Source: a virus. Taken from it: a stretch of 64,000 nucleotides of DNA. A program made the translations under genes and the position numbers. The stretch is taken from IMG/VR virus record IMGVR_UViG_3300032235_000637, positions 24,490 to 88,489 of that record; one strand, given 5' to 3'. The notes under the pieces are model-generated. The model searched no databases. It was not told the DNA's origin and saw only the letters and a list, made by a program, of their open reading frames with translations. Shown here piece after piece: positions 2,046-36,797 of this stretch. The stretch's first letter is position 1; the number at the start of each line of letters is the position of its first letter.

Positions 2046-2223
2046 ATTTCTGGTGTCTTCGGTAATTATCAAATCTTTCAATCAGATTGTCAAGTTCTAA
2101 ATTGTGATATTCTCCTTTTGTGATGATAGCTCTATCAGCTTGCAAAATTGAATAACAAGTGGAGAGACGAATATTTTTATCGGGGTCTTCTATTGTAATT
2201 GTAATTGTTTCGTTGCCTGTCAT
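2026..2223 (-). CDS. Hypothetical protein, 65 aa
   Basis: Short acidic protein beginning MTGNETITITIEDPDKN, a beta-type N-terminus followed by a charged helix. ATGA overlap with the HNH gene upstream at 2220-2223. Not recognised. Confidence 0.55.
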   Translation of the reverse strand: MTGNETITITIEDPDKNIRLSTCYSILQADRAIITKGEYHNLELDNLIERFDNYRRHQKYEMERI

Positions 2224-2801
2224 TGTTTCAATAGTTCAGGGTTCTCGAAATTCTCATATATTTTTAATATTTCTTTTGCCCATTTAATTTTATCCTCTAC
2301 CCTTTGTCCACTTGGCTGCGTAGTATTCCAAAGTTCTAGGTTAGATAATTCATTATTTTGCCTATTTCCATCTTTGTGGTGAACATTTTCACCTTTAGCA
2401 AGCGGTCTTTCAAGATATTTAGACATTACTAATCTATGTTCACCGATATAACCTTTTTTTGTCGTGTTAGGGTGATTCGGTTCGTAAACCATAACATATC
2501 CATTTGCATCTATAATTCTTCCACCCTTCCATCCACAACTTCTTTTGCCCTTATGTGCCAATGCGCTATTTTTACGAGCAAGTTCTGAAAACTTAGGTTC
2601 TAATGGTTTTAATCCCATTTCTTTTATAAATCCCGTCCAATTACCAAATCTCTGACGTATGGGCATATTACTCGGAGTCTCTGAGTCCAAGTAATATTGC
2701 TCTGCGGTAGGTCTCGCACCAAGTCTTTGTTCCAAATCCTTGAATGACTGTATCAGTTTCTTCTTCGTCCATTTGATAGACGCTTCCTTTGATGTTTCCA
2801 T
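2220..2801 (-). CDS. HNH homing endonuclease
   Basis: 193 aa. Residues ~10-66 (KWTKKKLIQSF... RFGNWTGFIKEMGL) match the homing-endonuclease-associated repeat with its conserved FG-W pattern. Residues ~118-160 form the HNH core (EHRLVMSKYLERPL, then ENVHHKDGNRQNN and LELW), with the His pair expected for metal binding and catalysis. Such enzymes cleave DNA and spread their own gene as free-standing phage elements. The first ~44 codons overlap the 3' end of the YopX-like gene in another frame, a sign of insertion there. Confidence 0.88.
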   Translation of the reverse strand: METSKEASIKWTKKKLIQSFKDLEQRLGARPTAEQYYLDSETPSNMPIRQRFGNWTGFIKEMGLKPLEPKFSELARKNSALAHKGKRSCGWKGGRIIDANGYVMVYEPNHPNTTKKGYIGEHRLVMSKYLERPLAKGENVHHKDGNRQNNELSNLELWNTTQPSGQRVEDKIKWAKEILKIYENFENPELLKQ

Positions 2802-8449: not shown

Positions 8450-9421
8450 TTATTTCGCATACGATCCATATTTATTTTTATAAAATTCCACAGTCTCTTT
8501 GAGAGCTTCGTCATGATTCCGTAATTCAAAAGGAATATGAGATTCGATGGCATAACGGAAGTCATGCCCCTTTCTATCTTCGACAAATTTGATATTAGGT
8601 GTCACTCCCAATATACTACCAATATCTTTGATCATGTCAAGGTTTGTTTTTTCAATTCCCGAACCAATGTTGGTAGAACAGTATGGATTACTAGCGATTT
8701 CCAACAACCATTTGTTGTGATCTTCAACATGAATCCACTCACGGATGTTCTCTCCTGTTCCATAGACAGGAATTGGTTCACCTCTTACGATAGAGCGAAT
8801 TACAGTGGGGAGAAATTTCTCATTTGCTTGGTGCTTACCGAAATTGTTACAGCAGTGTGTCGTGGTGATGTCTAATCCATAAGTCGTGACATAAGAGTTA
8901 GCAATCAGATCAGCAGATGCTTTGGATGCAGCATAAGGACTTCTTGGGTTGAATGGTGAATCTTCTGTGAATGCGGGGTCATTCACGTTCAAGTGTCCGA
9001 ATACTTCGTCAGTGGAAATATTAATAACTTTTGCTTGAGGTTGATATTTTCGCACCCATTCCAATAGAGACACCATACCAATTACATTATTTTCAATAAA
9101 TGCTTCGGGAGAATTGATGCTGCGATCAACATGAGATTCAGCAGCAAAATGGAAGATGTAATCGAATTTCCATTCTCTAGCTCGACTCAAGGATGAGTCT
9201 AAATTCATAATATTTTCCCTATATTCATAATATAAATTATCAGGATTTGATGTGATCCAATTGTAAGATTCTTTTATCAAAGGTCTTGCGCCAATTCCAT
9301 ACTTATCGATATTCACCAACTGGAGATTTTTATATTTTCGGAGAACCATTTCAATGAAATTACTCCCAATGAATCCACACCCACCAGTAACCAACACTTT
9401 ACAATTTGTTAAATCAATCAT
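8450..9421 (-). CDS. rmlB: dTDP-glucose 4,6-dehydratase (RmlB-like)
   Basis: 323 aa extended SDR enzyme. Rossmann motif GGCGFIG at residues 13-19, HFAAESHVDRS near 91-101, catalytic STDEVFG at 136-142 and YAASK at 163-167, and NNFGKHQANEKFLP near 192, all characteristic of RmlB. It converts dTDP-glucose to dTDP-4-keto-6-deoxyglucose, the branch point for deoxysugars. RmlA and an RmlD-like enzyme are encoded at 20.7-22.4 kb; no RmlC epimerase is seen. A TTGACA/TAAAGT promoter-like pair and AAGGGA lie upstream. Confidence 0.92.
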   Translation of the reverse strand: MIDLTNCKVLVTGGCGFIGSNFIEMVLRKYKNLQLVNIDKYGIGARPLIKESYNWITSNPDNLYYEYRENIMNLDSSLSRAREWKFDYIFHFAAESHVDRSINSPEAFIENNVIGMVSLLEWVRKYQPQAKVINISTDEVFGHLNVNDPAFTEDSPFNPRSPYAASKASADLIANSYVTTYGLDITTTHCCNNFGKHQANEKFLPTVIRSIVRGEPIPVYGTGENIREWIHVEDHNKWLLEIASNPYCSTNIGSGIEKTNLDMIKDIGSILGVTPNIKFVEDRKGHDFRYAIESHIPFELRNHDEALKETVEFYKNKYGSYAK

Positions 9422-9430
9422 ATTTCCCTT

Positions 9431-9458
9431 ACTTTAGCGTTGAATTAACCAATGTCAA
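9431..9458 (-). promoter_or_regulatory. Sigma-70-like promoter before rmlB
   Basis: Minus strand TTGACA (9458-9453), a 16-base spacer, then TAAAGT (9436-9431). Two other minus-strand sites begin with the same TTGACATT. Confidence 0.45.
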
Positions 9459-9500
9459 GAGTATTTTTTAAATCATTTCAAAAAATTTCATCATATTGAC

Positions 9501-9508
9501 TAAATATT
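9501..9508 (+). promoter_or_regulatory. Late-type TAAATATT box before tnpB-like gene
   Basis: Plus strand GACTAAATATTTATGTGACC: the box, one base, then ATGTGA overlapping the GTG start at 9512. Matches the context of virion genes. Confidence 0.5.
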
Positions 9509-9511
9509 TAT

Positions 9512-10849
9512 GTGACCACTTTGAAAATCAAACACGAATGTGATTCTGATCTGACAGCATTTCTCAGGGAATGTAATAAGATCAAAAGGATTGCGTTTAA
9601 TTTGTTCAAAATAGAGTATGATAGAAATGTAGTCAATAAGATTATCAAAAATGATTACAATATCAATTATAATTTGGTTGATATTTCTATTTTGGAATAT
9701 CAAGTTAGTAACGCTTTTGATTTGATGAAATCCTGTAAAGAACGTAAGCAATCTAAAATGACTTTCGGTTCTTTATTACAATGGAAAAGATTTAATAAGG
9801 GAATCATCTCTAAAGAGGAATTTAATAATATCAAAAATACCCAACCAATTCTATTTACTGGTAGATCAAACGAGTCGTTTGGTAATCGTAAGATAAAATT
9901 AGATATTTATAATAAACAAATTATTTTCAAACGCACCAAAAAAGACCACTATAATCTCAAGATTATCACATCCAATTCTCGTTGGAAAATGCTTGAGAAG
10001 TTGCAGAATTATTTTGAATTCAATTCTACGCCAATCACTTATAAATTAGATAATAATTATATTTATATAACTTTTGATGAGTCAGTTCTAAAAGAACGCG
10101 AACACCATTTTATTGACAATAGAATCGCTGGATTAGATTTGAATCCAAATTATATCGCTTTTACTATTAGGGATTTCAATAATGATTCTATCGTTCATAA
10201 GACTGTTTATGATCTTACCAAGTTAAATGATACTCATAATAAGAATAAAAAAGATCATGAAGTGGTGGAAATCTCTAAGAGTATTTCAAATCTCTGTAAG
10301 CATTATAAAGTGGAGTGTGTTGGTCTTGAAAAACTTACTATGACTTCCAAGAATCATAACAAGGGTCGTAAGCTGAATAGATTACTTAATAATTCTTGGA
10401 ATCGTAATAGATTCGTTAATAATCTCAAGAAACGTCTTAATATTTTAGGTATTAAAAATCAAGAATTGATATGCGCTTATTCATCTACCGTGGGATGCTT
10501 AGATCATCCAGAAGAAACAGACAGTATTGCAGCAGCCTTGGAAATGGCTCGTCGTTGCTATGTATTTTTAAATCGCTATGTTAAAAAGCGTAAAGAATTT
10601 TCAGATGTGGATGTTATGTTCCCATCGTTCAACAGGGGTCTGATAAAAGAGAGATGGAATTCAATTCTATCAGACTATAACCCTAAGAACATGGGATACA
10701 AAGGTATTCACGAATATCTGAAAGCTAATAAGAAATCGAATGAGTTAAGATTTCTCTTCAAGGACTATGATTTTAGTTCTTGGAGTTGTTTTAGTCTAAA
10801 ATCATACAAAAGTTTGGTAGCTTGCTACCAGAATGTGTTTGATTTATGA
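9512..10849 (+). CDS. TnpB-like RuvC nuclease lacking the zinc finger
   Basis: 445 aa, GTG start. The N-terminus (LKIKHECDSDLTAFLRECNK) and middle resemble IS605 OrfB/TnpB wedge and REC regions. RuvC residues are intact: D209 in IAGLDLNP, E273 in VGLEKL, D337 in ETDSIAAALEMARR. The four-Cys zinc finger normally between RuvC II and III is absent; only AYSSTVGCLDHPEE remains. A ~95-residue C-terminal extension follows. Known TnpB proteins are RNA-guided DNA nucleases. No TnpA or element ends are seen, and the gene sits behind a phage late box next to the probable small terminase. It could be a homing-type element or a domesticated nuclease. Confidence 0.8.
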   Translation: MTTLKIKHECDSDLTAFLRECNKIKRIAFNLFKIEYDRNVVNKIIKNDYNINYNLVDISILEYQVSNAFDLMKSCKERKQSKMTFGSLLQWKRFNKGIISKEEFNNIKNTQPILFTGRSNESFGNRKIKLDIYNKQIIFKRTKKDHYNLKIITSNSRWKMLEKLQNYFEFNSTPITYKLDNNYIYITFDESVLKEREHHFIDNRIAGLDLNPNYIAFTIRDFNNDSIVHKTVYDLTKLNDTHNKNKKDHEVVEISKSISNLCKHYKVECVGLEKLTMTSKNHNKGRKLNRLLNNSWNRNRFVNNLKKRLNILGIKNQELICAYSSTVGCLDHPEETDSIAAALEMARRCYVFLNRYVKKRKEFSDVDVMFPSFNRGLIKERWNSILSDYNPKNMGYKGIHEYLKANKKSNELRFLFKDYDFSSWSCFSLKSYKSLVACYQNVFDL

Positions 10850-10860
10850 TAGCTCAAGAG

Positions 10861-10868
10861 TAAATATC
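10861..10868 (+). promoter_or_regulatory. Late-type TAAATATC box
   Basis: Plus strand GAGTAAATATCAATATGG, three bases before the ATG at 10872 and 12 bases after the tnpB-like stop. Confidence 0.5.
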
Positions 10869-10871
10869 AAT

Positions 10872-11336
10872 ATGGATCACGATGAAGATGATGATTTTTT
10901 GAATGCGGAAGTGGATGATATTATTTCACAAATCAAAAATCAATCAAAAATTGTTAATCAATTACCAAAAAATAAACCAGATCTCAAGAAAGAAGATTTG
11001 GAAGAATTTGTTATTACCAATGCTGGTAAAGTCGTGAATCATTCTTTGGAAATGGTTGAGAATCTTAAATTGGAAGTTCTTGCTGGTGCAGATTCCAAGT
11101 TGATTGAGTCTGTATCAGAATTGGTGAAAGCTACCACATCTGCGATTGATGCTCTTTCCAAATTAAAAATATCGGAGGACAAAATCAAAGCACAGAAAGA
11201 AATCACTCAAATGAATATTCAAGCAAAAATCATTCGAGATGAAGAGGAGAGCAATACTCCAAAATTAACTTTCACTAGAAACGATATCATCAAATTGTTG
11301 AATCAAAAAGAAGAATCACCAGTAGTGGATGTTTAA
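10872..11336 (+). CDS. Putative small terminase subunit (gp16-like)
   Basis: 154 aa from the ATG at 10872, chosen because it directly follows a TAAATATC box. An acidic N-terminus is followed by a long helical core (residues ~55-125) with the pattern of T4 gp16 coiled-coil regions (VNHSLEMVENLKLEVLAGAD, then SELVKATTSAIDALSKLKI), and a C-terminal KLTFTRNDIIKLLN resembling the closing VFVGS-type motif of gp16. Small terminase recognises DNA and regulates gp17. It lies far from gp17 (30 kb), unlike T4. Assignment is by pattern and length. Confidence 0.5.
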   Translation: MDHDEDDDFLNAEVDDIISQIKNQSKIVNQLPKNKPDLKKEDLEEFVITNAGKVVNHSLEMVENLKLEVLAGADSKLIESVSELVKATTSAIDALSKLKISEDKIKAQKEITQMNIQAKIIRDEEESNTPKLTFTRNDIIKLLNQKEESPVVDV

Positions 11337-12244
11337 TTACCCAACTGTCCATCGACAGTATTGAGTTTGTATTCTTCGTTCTTGTCTGGTTTCTGTATTT
11401 TGAGAACAGTGTCTCTCTTATCAAAAACATCACCGAAGATATCTTCTTCAAAGATTTCATCCTTGTCTCCTTCTTTCAATTCTTTCTCAAATACATAATT
11501 TGAAGATGTTGCATTATTCTTTTCTGAATCGAATGGGGAGTAATCTTTTTTATCTCTAAAGATTCGGAAATGCTCTTCTCCAATAACTTCTTTAACCTTA
11601 TCGAAAATTTGACTTCTGATGTCTGACATCTTCACACGATAGTAAGAGTCCTTGACATTGATTGTGCCATGAGATTTTTGTTGCCATTCTCCTGTTTTCT
11701 CCAGTGAATATCTTTGCTGCGGTGCTTTATCAACAATTGGTAAGGTGTTGTCATTCACCACACTAGCGTTCAAAGAAGAACGAAACATCTTCTCTACTTC
11801 TTTATTGGCAGATACTATCATGTTCTGTATGAATTTTGGAGACTTATTGTAAATGTCCACTGGTATTTCCAATGGGTAATCACCATCTTCGAATAAGGTA
11901 GTGTTATGTCTAGTTATTTCTTTATTACCAACATTTCCAAGTATATCAGGAATCGCTTCAAAATACTTTTTATCCTTTGCCAATTCTTTAGCATAAGATG
12001 ACAACGGACCATTCGATAATTGCTTGACGTAATAGGCAATGTCCCATGGTTCCAAATCTTTTCCTTCTTCATCCAATTTATTAATAAATTTTTCCAATTG
12101 GTTGAGTCCTAATTCGTAAATCTTTTTAAATTCTATCATGAACTCAATTTCCACTTTGGAAAATTTGTCATCAATATTTTTATAATTCACCAAATCTTCT
12201 TTAGTGAATAGAATGCTACGGAGTATTTCAATTTTATTTCTCAT
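11333..12244 (-). CDS. Hypothetical tail/baseplate-region protein, 303 aa
   Basis: Charged, mostly helical, with an acidic C-terminus. It overlaps the hub gene upstream by ATGA (12241-12244) and lies at the end of the baseplate operon, so a virion or tail-assembly role is likely. No family recognised. Its stop overlaps the convergent gp16-like stop by four bases, leaving no room for a separate terminator. Confidence 0.65.
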   Translation of the reverse strand: MRNKIEILRSILFTKEDLVNYKNIDDKFSKVEIEFMIEFKKIYELGLNQLEKFINKLDEEGKDLEPWDIAYYVKQLSNGPLSSYAKELAKDKKYFEAIPDILGNVGNKEITRHNTTLFEDGDYPLEIPVDIYNKSPKFIQNMIVSANKEVEKMFRSSLNASVVNDNTLPIVDKAPQQRYSLEKTGEWQQKSHGTINVKDSYYRVKMSDIRSQIFDKVKEVIGEEHFRIFRDKKDYSPFDSEKNNATSSNYVFEKELKEGDKDEIFEEDIFGDVFDKRDTVLKIQKPDKNEEYKLNTVDGQLGN

Positions 12245-13551
12245 TCAACTTCATTTTTTATTTTGCTACTACTACCAACGTAGGTCTTACAGCATTTGAA
12301 TTCATTAGTATAGGTATCACTCGAAAAAATATGGCGCACTTCTGTTACAAACCACCTACCATACATTTTCGTATCACCTTTTTGTTTCACTTCTCCAATT
12401 TTAACAATATCTAAAAATTTACCTGCTTCTCTTCCAGTGAATCCTATGTTACTGAAAATACAATTCAAATTATAAAATGTTAATAAATTACACATTTCAG
12501 CTTCCACCATTTTCACAGTATCTTCAACTTCATATGGTGTTCTATAATGTCTAAATTTTTGTTTCGTGGTTTTATTTCTCACGACAAATGGTTTGGGACT
12601 ACCACCAATTGCTTTGAAAACATCAACAAATTTGGTCTTCCATTTTTTCTCAATATCTTCCAATTTTAAAATTTTCATTTTTTGGACACCTAAAAATTTG
12701 TCATACCCATGAACAACTGAATTGATAAAGAAATCATTATTCCATTCATACAGAGGTGTATTATATGCGAAATTTTTCAAACCACTGGAAAATTTACTAA
12801 CTTTCGCATCAGGTGGTGGGTTGTTTTCATTTTCAGCAACGCTTTTATCTGACAAATCAGCAGTGGTAAAAGCATCTGTCGTATTTTTTTTATTTTCTGA
12901 AAAAATCTTGGTGAGATACATCATTTGATATTTCCCAATTTTTTTATTTTTCATTATGAGTGCTTTAGTATAAAGTTCTCCATCTTTACCATAAAAATAT
13001 TTTAGTAGATGATAGACCAAATCAATGTATCTGAAAGACATGGGTGGTATGTAAGAAAAATCAAAATCTCCGCTTTCCCAATTTTCTTTATCGATTTTAT
13101 CTTCTCCCAATAATTCAATAAAAATGTCTTTTAAGATATCACCTATTTTACCACTGAACGATTTGTTGTATGGAATGGTGTCCATAAACGGTAACATATC
13201 TTTATGGATTATCTTAAATTTTTTAATATTTTCCGAACGAACTTCAACATCTCCACTGTTATCTTCTTGTAATAAGATAAATTCTTCTTCTATTTTTTCT
13301 TCCTCATCTTTGGGTTTTAAGAAAATTTTAACTTCATCTCTTCCATCACCTCTTAAAAGATATTTCTCTTCGAATAAATCATAAGGGTTTGCGACAGCAA
13401 TCGTTCCCCTTAAAAAAGGATTGAAAATACTATCTACCAAAGTTAAACCTTTGACAGCAGAACTAGCATATTTATTTTCATCTCCGTCAGAATTTTTAAA
13501 CGTGTATTCGTATTCAAATTCTACATCATTTATCTTACATACCTCAGCCAT
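12241..13551 (-). CDS. Baseplate hub protein (gp27/VgrG-like)
   Basis: 436 aa. The C-terminal segment KMYGRWFVTEVRHIFSSDTYTN ... KCCKTYVG follows the closing barrel pattern of phage hub proteins (G-W-V--V-H-F----Y--EF). The N-terminus (YASSAVKGLTLVDSIFNPFL, then GTIAVANPYDL) also fits the gp27 tube-like domain. T4 gp27 is 391 aa. It would form the trimeric hub joining tube and spike. Starts in a TAATG overlap with the preceding gene. Confidence 0.6.
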   Translation of the reverse strand: MAEVCKINDVEFEYEYTFKNSDGDENKYASSAVKGLTLVDSIFNPFLRGTIAVANPYDLFEEKYLLRGDGRDEVKIFLKPKDEEEKIEEEFILLQEDNSGDVEVRSENIKKFKIIHKDMLPFMDTIPYNKSFSGKIGDILKDIFIELLGEDKIDKENWESGDFDFSYIPPMSFRYIDLVYHLLKYFYGKDGELYTKALIMKNKKIGKYQMMYLTKIFSENKKNTTDAFTTADLSDKSVAENENNPPPDAKVSKFSSGLKNFAYNTPLYEWNNDFFINSVVHGYDKFLGVQKMKILKLEDIEKKWKTKFVDVFKAIGGSPKPFVVRNKTTKQKFRHYRTPYEVEDTVKMVEAEMCNLLTFYNLNCIFSNIGFTGREAGKFLDIVKIGEVKQKGDTKMYGRWFVTEVRHIFSSDTYTNEFKCCKTYVGSSSKIKNEVE

Positions 13552-13952
13552 TAGAAATGCCTCCCATTGAATATAGTATTTTTTGTAATATCGTTATAAA
13601 GCAATACTCTGTATTCCAATTTGATATATTTCAACCTTATACCACCATCAACCCAAAATGGAGGGTTTTGGATTTGGTCTTTATTCATCAGATACAAAAT
13701 CCACCATGATTTAATATCACCGTAAATTTTATAAGATAAAGTCGTCATGGGCATTCTGGTTGTCACATCATAAAATTCCACGAATTCTGGATCTAAATCT
13801 ACTAAATCAATTTTATTTAAAATATTATAGAAATAGAAATCTTTATCATCGACCTTTTCTGTATATACTCTAAAAATACGCTCATAATCCCCAATATTCA
13901 GCGTGGAAAGGGACTCTATGTTATTTTGGTAATCTCCTCGTTTTTCTTCCAT
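13551..13952 (-). CDS. Baseplate protein, gp53/LysM-like
   Basis: 133 aa. The segment YDVTTRMPMTTLSYKIYGD, followed by SWWILYLMNK, then PPFWVDGG and YIKLEYRVLLYNDI, resembles the gp53/LysM-like wedge protein pattern (start, WW-I---N, P---G--L). In T4, gp53 joins the wedges to the hub. Shorter than T4 gp53. Position between hub and tube-cap genes supports a baseplate role. Preceded by a TAAATGAT box that includes the stop codon of the previous gene. Confidence 0.45.
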   Translation of the reverse strand: MEEKRGDYQNNIESLSTLNIGDYERIFRVYTEKVDDKDFYFYNILNKIDLVDLDPEFVEFYDVTTRMPMTTLSYKIYGDIKSWWILYLMNKDQIQNPPFWVDGGIRLKYIKLEYRVLLYNDITKNTIFNGRHF

Positions 13953-13953
13953 A

Positions 13954-14805
13954 TCATTTAACTTTGTCCATGAAGTTGCTAACTTCGGTTGTCAATGAAG
14001 TGAGTGACATTGTAATTTGATAGCCATCAGGTGTGATAGCACCATTTACGAGTCTTCTCGCACCGATCATACTAACAGAAAAATTGCTACAATAAGCCCA
14101 TCTCATGTATCTCAAACCCTTTAATTTTACTTGGTAAATATGAGGAGGTTCCATGGTAATGGATGTTAGCCTTTTTGGTCTATTAATTCTTGTTAATTTA
14201 TCAATCAAATCATAATTTTTCTGAACAGCATCTCCATTTATCGTGTTGAATAATGGGAATGTTATTTCCAATGCACCATCGTTCTGTGCATATTGATATA
14301 ATTTAGGTGTTTCAATGTAAGAGCCAGGTGCGGTAGACATTCCTTTACCAAATCCACCAGCAGCTTTTTTAAATTCTTCCATATTACCTATACTAGAAAC
14401 CATTTCCCCTCCTTGTTTTACCAATTTAGAAATATTTTCTTTACCTTTAAATTCTTGCAAAGGTGCTAATATCTCATTAGAACCAGTTTGTAGCAAACTG
14501 TCAACTTTCGCTAAGGCTCCGTTTTGAAAAGTATCACCAAATTCATTTGAGAACGATCTAACACTATCACCAAAGTATGGTATAAAAAAATCATCAACTT
14601 TTTCAACGTTTTGATACAATCCTTCATAAAATTCATCAGCACTTTTAGCTGTAGCCAAATTTATATAACTCTGTAACCTATTCAAAGCGGCACTCGATTT
14701 TATTTTATAGGATGACAATTTTACATAAGGCGCAACATTTCGATATGGACTATTTCTGGGAACAGAAGTCCAGTCGTATTCTTTATGTACATTGATCGTA
14801 GCCAT
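13954..14805 (-). CDS. Baseplate tail-tube junction protein (gp48/gp54-like)
   Basis: 283 aa. The C-terminal half (KLYQYAQNDGALEITFPLFNT, SITMEPPHIYQVKLKGLRYM, then TPDGYQITMSLTSLTTEVSNF) matches tube-fold baseplate caps, where a P-xY-V-v-G motif and closing PD-y-v-m-l strand are typical. These proteins start tube assembly on the baseplate. N-terminal 150 residues are Ser/Ala-rich and helical. A TAAATAAT box precedes the start. Confidence 0.55.
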   Translation of the reverse strand: MATINVHKEYDWTSVPRNSPYRNVAPYVKLSSYKIKSSAALNRLQSYINLATAKSADEFYEGLYQNVEKVDDFFIPYFGDSVRSFSNEFGDTFQNGALAKVDSLLQTGSNEILAPLQEFKGKENISKLVKQGGEMVSSIGNMEEFKKAAGGFGKGMSTAPGSYIETPKLYQYAQNDGALEITFPLFNTINGDAVQKNYDLIDKLTRINRPKRLTSITMEPPHIYQVKLKGLRYMRWAYCSNFSVSMIGARRLVNGAITPDGYQITMSLTSLTTEVSNFMDKVK

Positions 14806-14809
14806 TGAT

Positions 14810-14817
14810 ATTATTTA
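14810..14817 (-). promoter_or_regulatory. Late-type TAAATAAT box
   Basis: Minus strand TTAAATAATATCAATGGC, four bases from the ATG at 14805. Confidence 0.6.
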
Positions 14818-14818
14818 A

Positions 14819-16693
14819 TTACGCGAATGCATATGGAGAACTACCATAATCACCTCTACTTGTATTCAAAGATACTTGAGAGGATGGTTTACTTTTAGAA
14901 CCACCACCAGAATTGGGAATAATTATTGGACTCGCAGAGCCTCCACCACTACTACCAGCAAGAACTTTATATGTCTGCATACCAATATTTCTGATATCTG
15001 TCAGAATAGCAATTTGCTCTCTACCAATCAATACCAAATCATCTACGTGTTGTTTACGTTTATCATCAACAACTTCTACTTTCTTTTTATTGGGGTTTTC
15101 TTTCCAACCAGATTTTTCATACTCTTCAACAGAATTCCAACCCATTTTTTTGGCATTTTCCTCTACCTCTTTGTCACCACCTCCGAATAAACTGAAATTT
15201 TTAATTTTATCCAAAACACCATTCATGATATTTTTTAACGTGTCGAATAGGTTGGTGATGACACTCATAACTGAGGTTCCGATGTTTTTAAGATTTTCAA
15301 TAATACGGACCATAAAATCACTACCCAAAAATTCTTGCACCGATTTAAAAAGACCAGAAAACCACTCACCGACTACTTTCAATGTAGGAGTTATCTGTTC
15401 CCAAAGACCAGAAAACCAATTGGTTATTTTACTCCATAAACCACCTGTTTCGGCTCCACCACCTTCAATCATAGGTTCTGATTGTGATTGATCATCATCT
15501 AAAATTCCCAACCATTGTAGAGGTGTTTTCAAAAAAGAAGGCAATTTTTTCAATTTATTCTTAACCCATTCTTTAATTCTACCGAACCAAGAAGTGTTTG
15601 GTTTTAAATCTTTTTTCTCTTCTTTATCACCGAAGAAGCCCATCAGAGTTTCAATACCCATAATGATCGGTCCCATACCTGCAAATGATAGTATACCAAG
15701 TCCAAATTGTTTCAGACCTTCCATAATATTACCACCTTTGAAAGCATCGTAAGCCATACCCCAACGCTTGAAGCCACCAATCACTGGCAACCACAAAGCA
15801 TTGTCCCAAATCCAGTTGCCAATACTTTTTGCCATGTCTCCTAAAATGTCCAATTTAGCAGAATTTTTATCCTTTGCTCCTGCTGTCTTGGCATCCAACC
15901 AAGCATTCAAAATATCCAAACCTATGGTAAGAGGTATAGCAATAATCGAGCCACCTGGAATTAAATTTAATAATCCAGCCAAAGCACTGAGAACGTCGAT
16001 AACACCCCCCACTGTATCGCCATCCATGAAGCGAGAAATAGCAAAACCTATGGATATGATAGTGCCAATCAAGGGAATTTTTTTAAGTATTTTAGCTAAT
16101 GGTTTCAAAGCACCAACGATTCTACCCATGAATCCTTTACCCAACAATTTACCAGCGAATTTGAAAGGTGCTGTAACAAATTTAGAGAATGTTCCTAACA
16201 TTCCTTTAGCTGCTGTCATGAGCATCTTGATACCACCTGATATACCAATTTTAGATAGTATTTTCAAAGCACCTTTAAACGGACCGTCAGTTAAAAGACC
16301 CATTATCAAAGCACCCGCACCACCTAATAGCATCAAAATACCACCAAGCATTGACCCTTTCTTGGGCATTTCCAAATCGCTTTTACGACCACCAGTTTCT
16401 AATTTCTTAGCATTTGGTATGATTTTTTGAACAGATGTTTTAAGTGCTTTATCACCCTGAAATTTTCGCTGCATTTCAAAAAATGTCTTTGCGAAAATAG
16501 ATGCGACCTCTTTAGTCTTCTTCTGTTCTTCATTAGAAAGAGAGCTTTTGACTTTTTTATTTGGATTGGAATTTCCTGTTTGGAGAACATTCTTGTCAGA
16601 TATATTCTCCCCTTCAGGTACACCCCTTGTCTCATTGATCGTTTGTAACAGACCAAGTACTTCTTCTAATAAGGGAACGATATTAACACTCAC
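14819..16693 (-). CDS. Tail tape-measure-like protein (gp29-like)
   Basis: 624 aa, GTG start. Several long hydrophobic Gly/Ala/Ile segments between residues ~110 and 370 (MLGGILMLLGGAGALIMGLL, LAGLLNLIPGGSIIAIPLTI), amphipathic Trp-rich helices after that (LWSKITNWFSGLWEQITPTL) and a Ser/Gly-rich tail. This is the usual make-up of tape measure proteins, which set tail length and can enter the host membrane. T4 gp29 is 590 aa, a similar length. Position beside tube-cap and hub genes agrees. Confidence 0.65.
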   Translation of the reverse strand: MSVNIVPLLEEVLGLLQTINETRGVPEGENISDKNVLQTGNSNPNKKVKSSLSNEEQKKTKEVASIFAKTFFEMQRKFQGDKALKTSVQKIIPNAKKLETGGRKSDLEMPKKGSMLGGILMLLGGAGALIMGLLTDGPFKGALKILSKIGISGGIKMLMTAAKGMLGTFSKFVTAPFKFAGKLLGKGFMGRIVGALKPLAKILKKIPLIGTIISIGFAISRFMDGDTVGGVIDVLSALAGLLNLIPGGSIIAIPLTIGLDILNAWLDAKTAGAKDKNSAKLDILGDMAKSIGNWIWDNALWLPVIGGFKRWGMAYDAFKGGNIMEGLKQFGLGILSFAGMGPIIMGIETLMGFFGDKEEKKDLKPNTSWFGRIKEWVKNKLKKLPSFLKTPLQWLGILDDDQSQSEPMIEGGGAETGGLWSKITNWFSGLWEQITPTLKVVGEWFSGLFKSVQEFLGSDFMVRIIENLKNIGTSVMSVITNLFDTLKNIMNGVLDKIKNFSLFGGGDKEVEENAKKMGWNSVEEYEKSGWKENPNKKKVEVVDDKRKQHVDDLVLIGREQIAILTDIRNIGMQTYKVLAGSSGGGSASPIIIPNSGGGSKSKPSSQVSLNTSRGDYGSSPYAFA

Positions 16694-24406: not shown

Positions 24407-25014
24407 TACACAGCAATCTGTTCGTAATTCTGACAAGCAAATGTCACAGATTTCACAGGGAATTCTGTATTCTGATAATCCATCGTAAACCCTTCAACAC
24501 CAGTGGGAAATGCTTTTCTAAAGATATAACCTTTTCTCAATTCGCCACCATTCGTGTATTGTTTTACTGTGATATCAGCTTTGAGATTTGCACCTGCTTC
24601 GATCAAACCTTTTATTGATAAAGCTATGATCCAAGGTCTAAAGTATTCATGCTCCAAATCTTTACGTGTTTCCAAGAAGTTCACGGAAAAGCTACGTGAT
24701 AAGAAATCTTGTCTGTTATTCAACACATATCCTGGTAAAAATCCACCACTATTTTCACCAATTGAACTGGAACCAAAGTTAGCACCTTCAGTTGGAATTG
24801 TCACTGATTGTGCTGGTAAAATATTACCATTTTTCGTCATGGAATTAGGAGTGATCTTAGCTCTCCATTTTTCCTGCGCCAATTGTAAATACTGATTTAT
24901 AGAATCATTAGACACTCCATCAATAGATACTGACCATAATACTGGTATAGAAAGACAGTATCTAGCGTCCCCTGAGAACGCTTGGAGAAAATCTTCAATC
25001 TGTGGGTTGGACAT
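24406..25014 (-). CDS. Tail-tube-fold protein (gp19/gp54-like)
   Basis: 202 aa. N-terminal FSGDARYCLSIPVLWSVSID and C-terminal AFPTGVEGFTMDYQNTEFPV followed by KSVTFACQNYEQ match the tube-fold pattern (FP-----l-y-----i---vtF-y--y). It follows the main tube gene and is probably a tube-initiator or baseplate tube paralogue. A TTAAGTAATT variant of the late box precedes its ATG. Confidence 0.6.
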   Translation of the reverse strand: MSNPQIEDFLQAFSGDARYCLSIPVLWSVSIDGVSNDSINQYLQLAQEKWRAKITPNSMTKNGNILPAQSVTIPTEGANFGSSSIGENSGGFLPGYVLNNRQDFLSRSFSVNFLETRKDLEHEYFRPWIIALSIKGLIEAGANLKADITVKQYTNGGELRKGYIFRKAFPTGVEGFTMDYQNTEFPVKSVTFACQNYEQIAV

Positions 25015-25614: not shown

Positions 25615-26376
25615 TTAAGATGTGATTTTTCTCCAAATAAAGTTTCCAGCACTTTTTCTTTTCCCATTACAAACAGAACCGATATGTCCACTATCTATAC
25701 CAGTCTGCCTCATAGCTTCTTGTATTGATGAATATCTTGCAACAAATTCCCCTGATTTAGTATATTGTTCCACTTCTATACGATCCTTTCGATTCATCAT
25801 TAATTTATTTTTATGATCATCAGATGTTTTTTTACCATATCTCCCATTTCTCTCACCTCTTCTGGAATCTCCCATTTTTTTCTTCGTCTCCTCTGACATT
25901 TTTTTACCATACATAGGATGGTTTTCCCCACTCTTGGCTTTTGACATATTTTCTCTCCATTCTTCTGTGATGACTCTCCCTTTAAAAATTTCACTTCTTT
26001 TTTTGCGAGCTTCAAGAGATTGTGTTGCTGAATATCTATTTTGCCCTCTTGAACAAACATTGTATCCATTTCCACTCATTAAACTATTGTGTTCTTTTAT
26101 TAATCTCTCTTCAATATCCAATAATTCTTCCTTAGACATATCGGGATAATATTGATATTTGAAGGAAAAATTTTCTAAACCATGTTTATTAATAGCTCTC
26201 AATATGGGTCTAGGAGTATCTATATTCGATTTATGATATGAATATACTCGCTGTCTCAGATTCATAGTTTCTCCGATATAAACCTTCCCATTTATTTCAT
26301 TTTTTAAAATATAAATAGCAGGGTATTGATCATATTCAGTTGCTTTACCTAAATTGTAAATAGTAGTTCCAGCCAT
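25615..26376 (-). CDS. GIY-YIG homing endonuclease with NUMOD repeats
   Basis: 253 aa. GIY-YIG domain: IYILKNEINGKVYIGET at residues ~21-37, catalytic Arg in LRQRVYSYH and Glu in EERLIKEHNS. Then NUMOD3-type repeats (SGENHPMYGKKMSEETKKKM; RGERNGRYGKKTSDDHKNKL) and a C-terminal NUMOD1-like DNA-binding segment (YTKSGEFVARYSSIQEAMRQ ... SVCNGKRKSAGNFIWRK). Free-standing homing endonuclease, like T4 Seg proteins, placed between sheath and tube genes with its own late box. Confidence 0.92.
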   Translation of the reverse strand: MAGTTIYNLGKATEYDQYPAIYILKNEINGKVYIGETMNLRQRVYSYHKSNIDTPRPILRAINKHGLENFSFKYQYYPDMSKEELLDIEERLIKEHNSLMSGNGYNVCSRGQNRYSATQSLEARKKRSEIFKGRVITEEWRENMSKAKSGENHPMYGKKMSEETKKKMGDSRRGERNGRYGKKTSDDHKNKLMMNRKDRIEVEQYTKSGEFVARYSSIQEAMRQTGIDSGHIGSVCNGKRKSAGNFIWRKITS

Positions 26377-34666: not shown

Positions 34667-34674
34667 ATTATTTA
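34667..34674 (-). promoter_or_regulatory. Late-type TAAATAAT box
   Basis: Minus strand GCTAAATAATAACATGTC. The TAA is the stop codon region of the sulfotransferase gene (stop at 34668-34670 lies within it on the other phase). Confidence 0.55.
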
Positions 34675-35468
34675 GCTAAATTTTTCCAAAATTCGTAACC
34701 TTTTAGTGTTTTACATATATCTTCTCCTAAAATCTCATTTGCTTTAGAATTGGAAGGGATGATAGAATTTTTTATTGTGTGTAGATCAACGTAATTATAC
34801 ACTGTATCATCCTCTGGTGTCTTATTGACTATATTATTGAAATCGTGTTCAATTTTAGGAATATCTAAAAATTCCCAAACCTTATCCATAACATATTGTG
34901 GATTATGTGTAAGATAATCGTAATCAATCAAAAGAAACCTGTCACTATAACCTCTCAAAAAGGCATCCTTTAAAATTGCATACGCTGATCCGACTTCACC
35001 TTGTAGACTTCCCCAATGCTGCATTCTACCCTCAGTTGTGACGCATTGAGGCATCGGACCTTGAGGTGGGAATTTATATGAACCTTTTCTATATAAAGAC
35101 TCGAAAGAAGCTAAAACATCTTTGATGTCTCTCACAGGGGCAATAATTTTAACTTTTTTACCTGTTATTGTTTCGATCATTTCTATATTATGACCCCATG
35201 CTCTCGACTTATCAAAGATGTATGGTTTTTCGGTGTTGTGGTAATTGTAAAATACTGTATTGAGTATTCTTTTCAAGTTTTCATCAGCAGAAGCATTCTT
35301 ATCAGCACGGTGTTCTAGCATATTAGACCAAGAAACCTTAATACTGTTTAATAGATTTGGCAAGCCAGAGGTAGGAGTGCAGAATACGTTTTCATTCTGT
35401 GCCAATAAGTTCATGAGTAGTGTGCTACCAGATCTTGGTAGACCTCCAACAAAAAATATTTCTTTCAT
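34668..35468 (-). CDS. PAPS-type sulfotransferase
   Basis: 266 aa. FVGGLPRSGSTLLMNLLAQN at residues ~6-25 is the 5'-phosphosulfate loop, and APVRDIKDVLASFESLYRKG near 115-134 is the 3'-phosphate-binding loop with its conserved Arg. KPYIFDKSRAWGHNIEMIE and DYDYLTHNPQYVMDKVWEFL also fit. Transfers sulfate from PAPS to sugars or other acceptors. Rare in phages. It sits between virion genes and directly before a fibre gene, and the genome also encodes sugar-nucleotide enzymes, so a glycan or fibre target is possible. Confidence 0.82.
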   Translation of the reverse strand: MKEIFFVGGLPRSGSTLLMNLLAQNENVFCTPTSGLPNLLNSIKVSWSNMLEHRADKNASADENLKRILNTVFYNYHNTEKPYIFDKSRAWGHNIEMIETITGKKVKIIAPVRDIKDVLASFESLYRKGSYKFPPQGPMPQCVTTEGRMQHWGSLQGEVGSAYAILKDAFLRGYSDRFLLIDYDYLTHNPQYVMDKVWEFLDIPKIEHDFNNIVNKTPEDDTVYNYVDLHTIKNSIIPSNSKANEILGEDICKTLKGYEFWKNLAK

Positions 35469-35486: not shown

Positions 35487-36797
35487 TTAGGCAGGAAGAA
35501 AGGCAATTTTTCTCAAAACACCATTTATTCTCACAACTAAAGCAGTATCACCGTTTGTCGTGGATAGAGGTACTGATGCTGATCCAAGAACGAGTTGATT
35601 CCGTGCGGTAGGAACAGCACCATTACCTAAAGCAATACAACCTGATAAAGATGCACCAGAATTTGAACCAATGAAGATAGAATCATTTGCATCAGTAGCA
35701 TTAAGACCAGCATTCTGCCCTATAAAAATAGAATTATTTGCATTTATAGCACCGCTACCAGCATTATAACCTAAAAAATTAGAATTATTCGCATAGGTAG
35801 CATCATTACCAGCCTTCTGACCTAAAAAATTAGAATGATTCGCAAATTTAGCCTTATAACCAGCATCAAAACCAAAGAAATTGGAATTATTCGCATATAC
35901 GGCATAAATGCCAGTGCTACCACCACCCGCCCTCTGACCAAAGAAATTAGAATTATATGCCTCTTCGCATCGTTCACCAGCCTCAAGACCAAAGAAATTA
36001 GAATTACTTGCATTGGTAGCATTATTACCAGCATATCTTCCTAAGAAATTGGAATTATTCGCATCATCAGCTTGAAAACCAGCATTATAGCCTAAGAAAT
36101 TGGAATTAGCTGCATTGATAGCATCATTACCAGCACCATTACCTAAAAAATTAGAATTATTTGCACTATCAGCACTACTACCAGCACCATTACCTAAGAA
36201 ATTAGAATTATTTGCACCTGTAGCACTACTACCAGCACCACTACCTAAAAAATTAGAATTATTTGCATTATCAGCACTACTACCAGCACCACTACCTAAA
36301 AAATTAGAATTATTTGCACCTGTAGCACCGTTACCAGAGTAAAGACCTATGAAGTTAGAAGAATATGCATTTGTAACACCAAACCCAGCATATCTACCTA
36401 CAAAGTTAGAATCAGTCGCATTTGTAGCACCAACCCCAGCAGCGTAACCTACAAAAAAACTATTTAAGATTGGTGTATTGATAGGTAGGCTACCTATGTT
36501 GATCGCACTCGAAGCAAATGTCTGTGTCGATGAGAAATTGTTATCAACGTTCACTTTCGCATAATTAGCGGAATTAGCACGGAAAGTGGTCGCAGTGCTT
36601 TGCCAGTTGGATGATAAGCTACGAACTGTGGTTGTAGTGCTTTGCCAATCAGAGGATAAGCCACGAACTGTGGTATCCGTATAATTTTTGATAGAGCTTA
36701 AAGGAGTATTATATGTCACCCCTCTTTGATTCAAAATAAAAGTCTCACCACCAGATAGAGGTGTTGTTGCTGGATCATATTGGGAAATCTTAGGCAT
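35487..36797 (-). CDS. Fibre protein with ~16 tandem 17-residue beta-roll repeats
   Basis: 436 aa. N-terminal MPKISQYDPATTPLSGGETF resembles other fibre attachment starts. A coil-like Ser/Thr region (DTTVRGLSSDWQSTTTTVRS) follows. Residues ~111-385 are repeats of NNSNFLGxxAGxxAxxA, a beta-roll of YadA-head style; the tail CIALGNGAVPTARNQLVLGS is a classical YadA-type motif. Likely a trimeric, surface-exposed adhesin or fibre. Divergent from gp25, sharing a double late promoter. Confidence 0.8.
   Translation of the reverse strand: MPKISQYDPATTPLSGGETFILNQRGVTYNTPLSSIKNYTDTTVRGLSSDWQSTTTTVRSLSSNWQSTATTFRANSANYAKVNVDNNFSSTQTFASSAINIGSLPINTPILNSFFVGYAAGVGATNATDSNFVGRYAGFGVTNAYSSNFIGLYSGNGATGANNSNFLGSGAGSSADNANNSNFLGSGAGSSATGANNSNFLGNGAGSSADSANNSNFLGNGAGNDAINAANSNFLGYNAGFQADDANNSNFLGRYAGNNATNASNSNFFGLEAGERCEEAYNSNFFGQRAGGGSTGIYAVYANNSNFFGFDAGYKAKFANHSNFLGQKAGNDATYANNSNFLGYNAGSGAINANNSIFIGQNAGLNATDANDSIFIGSNSGASLSGCIALGNGAVPTARNQLVLGSASVPLSTTNGDTALVVRINGVLRKIAFLPA
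35640..36467 (-). repeat. 51-bp tandem coding repeats
   Basis: About 16 copies of a 51-base unit coding for NNSNFLGxxAGxxAxxA. Copies between ~36120 and 36330 are nearly identical, pointing to recent duplication; one copy near 35900-35965 has a five-codon insertion (IYAVY). Confidence 0.9.

Follow-up and report, generated by a model that had tools for sequence, protein, structure and literature searches.

Introduction

TnpB of ISDra2, an insertion sequence (IS) of the IS200/IS605 type, is a 408-amino-acid protein with 47 residues following D361 (PMC10097598), and its guide RNA, the omegaRNA, overlaps the nuclease gene (PMC10278001; PMC10097598). In the IS607-type TnpBs guided by RAGATH-18 RNAs, by contrast, no part of the guide RNA falls within the coding sequence (PMC11061315). 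Phages also carry homing endonuclease genes, whose presence at exchange boundaries between phages is well documented (PMC10448857). Here we describe a tnpB-like gene in a T4-like phage, found in a 64,000-nucleotide (nt) stretch (the window; positions 24,490 to 88,489) of the 88-kb IMG/VR record IMGVR_UViG_3300032235_000637, which encodes a Terminase_6N large terminase. The gene probably specifies an RNA-guided, homing-like nuclease that operates without a TnpA transposase and is expressed late in infection.

A zinc-finger-less TnpB lineage

The gene is present in a single copy in the phage record and encodes a protein of 445 amino acids (Table 1). The three RuvC acidic residues named in the original prediction, which was made from the window's sequence alone, are at the positions given (D209, E273 and D337), and all are invariant in the 47 family members aligned (47/47). 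The TnpB-like fold also proposed there is borne out by structure prediction: an AlphaFold2 model (predicted local distance difference test score 85.7, predicted template modelling score 0.71) gave full-length Foldseek matches to Cas12f1, Cas12k, ISFba1 TnpB and ISDra2 TnpB, with E values from 3.5e-8 to 6e-5, and has the WED-REC-RuvC layout of the TnpB superfamily. The ratio of non-synonymous to synonymous substitution rates is ~0.08 over residues 1-350 in the four closest members; the gene is therefore under selection for function, and a chance reading frame is excluded.

The CxxC pair between RuvC II and III is absent from the window protein and from nearly all of its relatives. In nearly all members of the 47-member alignment, a YSSxxGN-type entry into RuvC III replaces the zinc finger and is followed by ~100 residues; the window protein has ~108 residues after D337. 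The missing finger and the long C-terminal tail had been read as a loss and a gain in this phage. Both features are real, but they are found family-wide and are therefore properties of the lineage. Even the annotated IS607 TnpB of ISCaje4 is without the TNB zinc finger expected between RuvC II and III, which therefore does not define the zinc-finger-less branch to which we assign the protein.

This lineage comprises more than 60 proteins, mostly from phages and including the IS607-type ISCaje4 TnpB. The nearest named relatives, at 27-32% identity, are the ISCaje4 TnpB of Campylobacter phage CP220 and proteins of Lak megaphages and other huge phages. Closer homologues occur in the IMG/VR loci L001 (identical in sequence to L002; 80%), L003 (74-75%), L017 (70%) and L151 (52%), and ~70 further, distant relatives were found in the same database. 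The TIGR01766 model scores the window protein at 18.8 bits, below its curated cut-off of 32, and matches six of eight family members tested (best E 3.9e-7). Searches of Pfam, PHROGs and PADLOC with the protein returned nothing meaningful, and a sequence search of the PDB nothing useful. The gene apparently encodes an intact TnpB-like RuvC nuclease, for which RNA-guided cleavage is predicted. No phage TnpB group of this kind, lacking both zinc finger and TnpA, turned up in the literature searched, which consisted of open papers with few subscription papers or preprints; this is weak evidence of novelty.

The TAAATA box stands 5 nt before the GTG start codon, as it does in many genes of this phage, and the GTG aligns with an ATG in L003 and L151. 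The box fits the late genes of the phage, and late expression from it appears likely. The start context had been described as TAAATA with ATGTGA; the first element holds, but ATGTGA is an ATG followed by an out-of-frame TGA, and the true start is the GTG. TAAATA boxes lie 3-9 nt upstream of start codons at many sites in the window, suggesting very short late-gene leaders.

A structured RNA in the 3' end of the gene

The fraction of synonymous changes is ~0.45 along the gene and only 0.13-0.34 over codons 352-430 (window 10565 to ~10800). The same drop is seen in all six pairs of the close group and in two independent groups from jumbo phages, and among pairs of the four closest members the synonymous substitution rate in this 3' stretch is ~2.5- to 9-fold below that upstream. 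The region 10604-10831 folds more stably than its shuffled versions (z -3.98), as does the same region in three relatives (z -5.66, -3.42 and -3.31), with two upstream control stretches giving z scores of 0.01 and -0.20. A consensus structure for five sequences has 60 pairs in five helices, and 94.7% of its cells are paired, against 40-47% in slid control versions. This percentage leans towards the structure, since the consensus was derived from four of the five sequences scored. The 12 pairs changed on both sides do not depend on that alone, and none of 500 shuffles equalled them.

The RNA ends in a hairpin that different members build from unrelated sequences, and in five close relatives conservation ceases directly after it. 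The hairpin is seen in single-sequence folds; RNAalifold alone missed it because its sequence is not alignable. At this locus Rfam gave sub-threshold matches only, with neither RAGATH-18 nor any other family found. Taken together, synonymous constraint, covariation and folding scores argue that the last ~80 codons (10565-10831) double as an omegaRNA, followed by ~22 variable, guide-sized bases. A guide-RNA region at the 3' end had been anticipated, and these comparative tests among relatives strongly confirm it. The same prediction had the 3' end running straight into a small-terminase-like gene. The next gene in fact begins at 10872 (MDHDEDDD...) and not at 10833, and the terminase label could not be verified, as that gene has no Pfam match and no terminase signature.

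The gene is part of a mobile unit

Comparison of the window with the near-identical phage L089 by blastn gave two aligned blocks, 8467-9463 and 10854-15325, of 97-99% identity, which overlap by 9 base pairs (bp) in L089. Because L089 is an empty site, the boundaries of the insert can be placed at 9464-10862, with TCAAGAGTA at both ends; a 9-bp repeat alone could arise by chance, but here it is delimited by the empty site. The earlier statement that there is no sign of IS ends was therefore partly wrong. The insert is absent from L089 and from L090-L099, ~10 close relatives in all. In L001, L003, L017 and L151 the TnpB unit sits between other genes, and because these four relatives carry the same unit in other contexts, a chimeric contig is an unlikely source of the insert. 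Several diverged copies are present in each of the jumbo-phage contigs; in most pairs of copies, the homologous stretch opens with the start codon or a little upstream of it and ends just past the gene. Flanking repeats in the jumbo-phage groups did not exceed cross-pair controls, except in L064, where the sequence is of low complexity. One 215-kb contig, IMGVR_UViG_3300031998_000006 (L025, L031, L032 and L034), holds at least five diverged copies of the zinc-finger-less gene, among them a tandem pair in L031. No CRISPR array was found near the window locus. By these comparisons the tnpB gene is mobile and not fixed in a packaging function.

The putative guide and its flanks

In L017 the bases that follow the hairpin can be aligned, beginning with the very first, to the start region of the gene on the left, with a score of 25.5 versus a best cross-locus score of 16.1 (0/500 shuffles). 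In L151 the corresponding bases align with the N-terminal part of a gene resembling that for IF-1 (21.0 versus 17.1 cross-locus; 0/500 shuffles). This IF-1 homologue (L151 4587-4799, minus strand; PF01176, 4.7e-11) is intact and lies to the left of the element, and a second, truncated and diverged copy of the IF-1 N-terminus is found beyond it. With moderate support, the guide-side flank in L001 is likewise a diverged copy of the start of the adjacent gene; in these loci the resident copy accordingly mismatches the guide. The guide would then represent another, diverged allele of the region next to it, an origin supported in L017 and L151, with L001 a weaker case; for the window element the same origin is only suggestive.

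The putative window guide is absent from the L089 empty site and matches none of the empty alleles sampled; the target predicted for it would read AATGTGTTTGATTTATG. Mismatch scans for guide targets in the loci compared gave chance levels. A 17-nt guide match in gp32-like genes, identified as such from a translated motif alone, was put down to chance, as equally good matches occur at four or five unrelated sites.

Proposed mechanism and alternative explanations

We propose that the locus is a one-gene mobile element lacking TnpA, in which the 3' end of a zinc-finger-less IS607-type tnpB is its own omegaRNA. An mRNA would be made from the TAAATA late promoter and its end processed into the omegaRNA, so that TnpB binds RNA cut from its own message. 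For DNA cutting, the protein would be guided by the ~16-22 nt that follow the terminal hairpin. By analogy with the free-standing homing endonucleases of T4-like phages, the resulting ribonucleoprotein may cleave the allele that matches its guide when a related phage infects the same cell. Repair dependent on recombination would then copy the element, or the carrier would gain an advantage. Presence or absence of the insert at otherwise homologous sites, as expected of a homing element, is consistent with this. Homing or inter-phage competition, both raised in the original prediction, is the most plausible role.

Several observations weigh against this interpretation. The extended TAAATA motif is about as frequent in the window as expected by chance. 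The L001 flank alignment has a p value of 0.01, but its score (17.1) equals the best cross-locus score (17.1), and L003 has no flank duplication. The window guide matches the L095 allele at 12 of 22 positions (p ~0.02-0.06), which is weak, and the Smith-Waterman test of the window flank falls short of significance (p 0.058). At this locus no exact 17-nt match to the window's guide was found in a plausible T4-like sibling, the 21 matches found look like chance, and the L017 guide was found solely in its own contig. A target-adjacent motif consensus could not be read. We put forward only tentatively, and with some doubt, the more general proposal that in T4-like phages a TnpB without a transposase works as an RNA-guided nuclease for homing or interference and brings its own guide along. 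That guide would be the start region of the neighbouring gene in a diverged allelic form, so that mismatch protects the carrier's copy and siblings bearing the alternative allele are cleaved.

The locus might instead be an ordinary non-autonomous IS607 element, in which TnpB and the omegaRNA retain the element, the guide corresponds to flanking host sequence, and TnpA acts in trans. Sister proteins do lie beside an IS607 serine resolvase in ~12 of 43 records (adjacency judged from coordinates), ISCaje4 is annotated as IS607-type, and the lineage is multi-copy in jumbo phages. However, as predicted originally, no TnpA accompanies the window gene: neither a serine resolvase (PF00239) nor a Y1 TnpA was detected in the window, L001, L003 or L017 records, which may be incomplete. 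The phylogenetic tree places the close group on a single deep branch without TnpA (100/100), with the TnpA-linked members scattered over other branches, so that an IS607-type ancestor followed by repeated TnpA loss is the simplest history. Further, IS605 and IS607 insertions lack a target duplication and have a guide equal to the empty-site flank, whereas here a 9-bp direct repeat is present and the putative guide is missing from the empty site. We regard this explanation as unlikely.

Less likely still is a nuclease that cuts host or competitor DNA, in interference or superinfection exclusion, without copying itself. The intact triad under strong selection, the variation in guide-position sequence among members and the late-type promoter box are compatible with such a role, but the gene is missing from close relatives, its loci vary, and no host or phage target for the guide was found. 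The suggestion of a domesticated nuclease acting in DNA packaging, in favour of which stands a neighbouring phage gene with its own TAAATA box, is scarcely credible. It is contradicted by the empty sites of ~10 close relatives, which mark the gene as a recent insertion, and by the position of the relatives' tnpB genes, which adjoin other genes; the neighbour in the window also lacks a terminase signature. A transposase-free, homing-like nuclease is thus the interpretation we retain.

Features of the locus and neighbouring genes

Table 1. Features of the tnpB-like element and its boundaries in the window.
Feature	Position	Strand	Remarks
Entire insert, as delimited by the empty site in near-identical phage L089	9464..10862	+	1399 bp, including the second 9-bp repeat copy
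Left copy of 9-bp direct repeat, TCAAGAGTA	9455..9463	.	Empty-site comparison
Right copy of 9-bp direct repeat, TCAAGAGTA	10854..10862	.	Empty-site comparison
Probable left end of the mobile unit	9464..9500	+	ATTTCAAAAAAT-N14-TAAATA pattern common to L001 and L151
TAAATA late-promoter-like box	9501..9506	+	5 nt upstream of start; conserved in L001, L003, L017 and L151
TnpB-like RuvC nuclease without zinc finger, 445 amino acids, GTG start	9512..10849	+	D209/E273/D337
Predicted omegaRNA scaffold over the 3' end of the reading frame	10604..10831	+	Five conserved helices and terminal hairpin
Terminal hairpin UGGUAG-CUUG-CUACCA	10815..10831	+	Same hairpin formed from unrelated sequences in other members
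Putative guide AATGTGTTTGATTTATGATAGC, variable, directly after the scaffold	10832..10853	+	By analogy with TnpB omegaRNAs

Adjoining the insert is a gene for a NAD-dependent sugar epimerase/dehydratase (8450-9421, minus strand), part of which differs sharply in L092-L096, suggesting allele exchange. The window also contains homing endonuclease genes of the GIY-YIG/NUMOD3 type (25618-26376, minus strand) and of the HNH type with an HNH_repeat (2223-2801, minus strand). Where L003 has tnpB, L133-L143, which contain relatives of its left neighbour gene, have a gene for a product of 374-377 amino acids (for example L133:1797-2927, minus strand). The end of this gene overlaps the next one; its HNH motif was read by eye, and it has no Pfam match. 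These HNH and GIY-YIG genes fit a homing-type niche. The large terminase gene of L017 (5407-9346) reads as split by long insertions resembling inteins and an endonuclease frame. Among the virion genes of the window is a sulfotransferase gene (34671-35468, minus strand; PF13469). At 35490-36797 (minus strand) the window has a gene for a long NSNFLG-type repeat protein with no Pfam family.

Comparison with known systems

If the proposal is correct, a lytic phage has exchanged a protein-recognised homing endonuclease for a reprogrammable RNA-guided one, in which a change of ~20 bases would give a new target. It would also offer a direct test of whether TnpB can be a selfish nuclease without TnpA. 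The zinc-finger-less lineage that it defines, with an omegaRNA inside the reading frame and a conserved C-terminal tail, should help in studying the role of the zinc finger.

The window protein belongs to the same lineage as the ISCaje4 TnpB of phage CP220 (30-33% identity), with which it shares the YSSxxGN zinc-finger-less RuvC III and the C-terminal tail. The window element differs from ISCaje4 in lacking the serine-resolvase TnpA present upstream there, in having a TAAATA box and in residing in a T4-like phage that belongs to a different clade. With ISDra2 it shares the WED/REC/RuvC layout, the D-E-D triad and an omegaRNA overlapping the 3' end of the gene, whereas ISDra2 differs in having both a CCCC zinc finger (TNB) and a Y1 TnpA as partner, in its short C-terminal domain, which cleavage can do without, and in its guide, which matches the insertion site. 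The RAGATH-18-guided IS607 TnpBs (ISFba1, PDB 8iaz) are likewise IS607-type and match in fold, but the predicted window guide RNA overlaps the reading frame. TldRs, TnpB-like repressors encoded by phages, are nuclease-dead, and the window TnpB differs from them in keeping all three acidic residues. It is like them in being a TnpB-derived phage protein with a predicted guide RNA (PMC13418256). The element also resembles the homing endonucleases that T4-like phages carry as free-standing genes (Seg/Mob, HNH and GIY-YIG), which are single-gene mobile nucleases beside phage genes, with no transposase and with empty sites in siblings. Those enzymes recognise their sites by protein and without a guide RNA, whereas the window TnpB is proposed to be guided by RNA.
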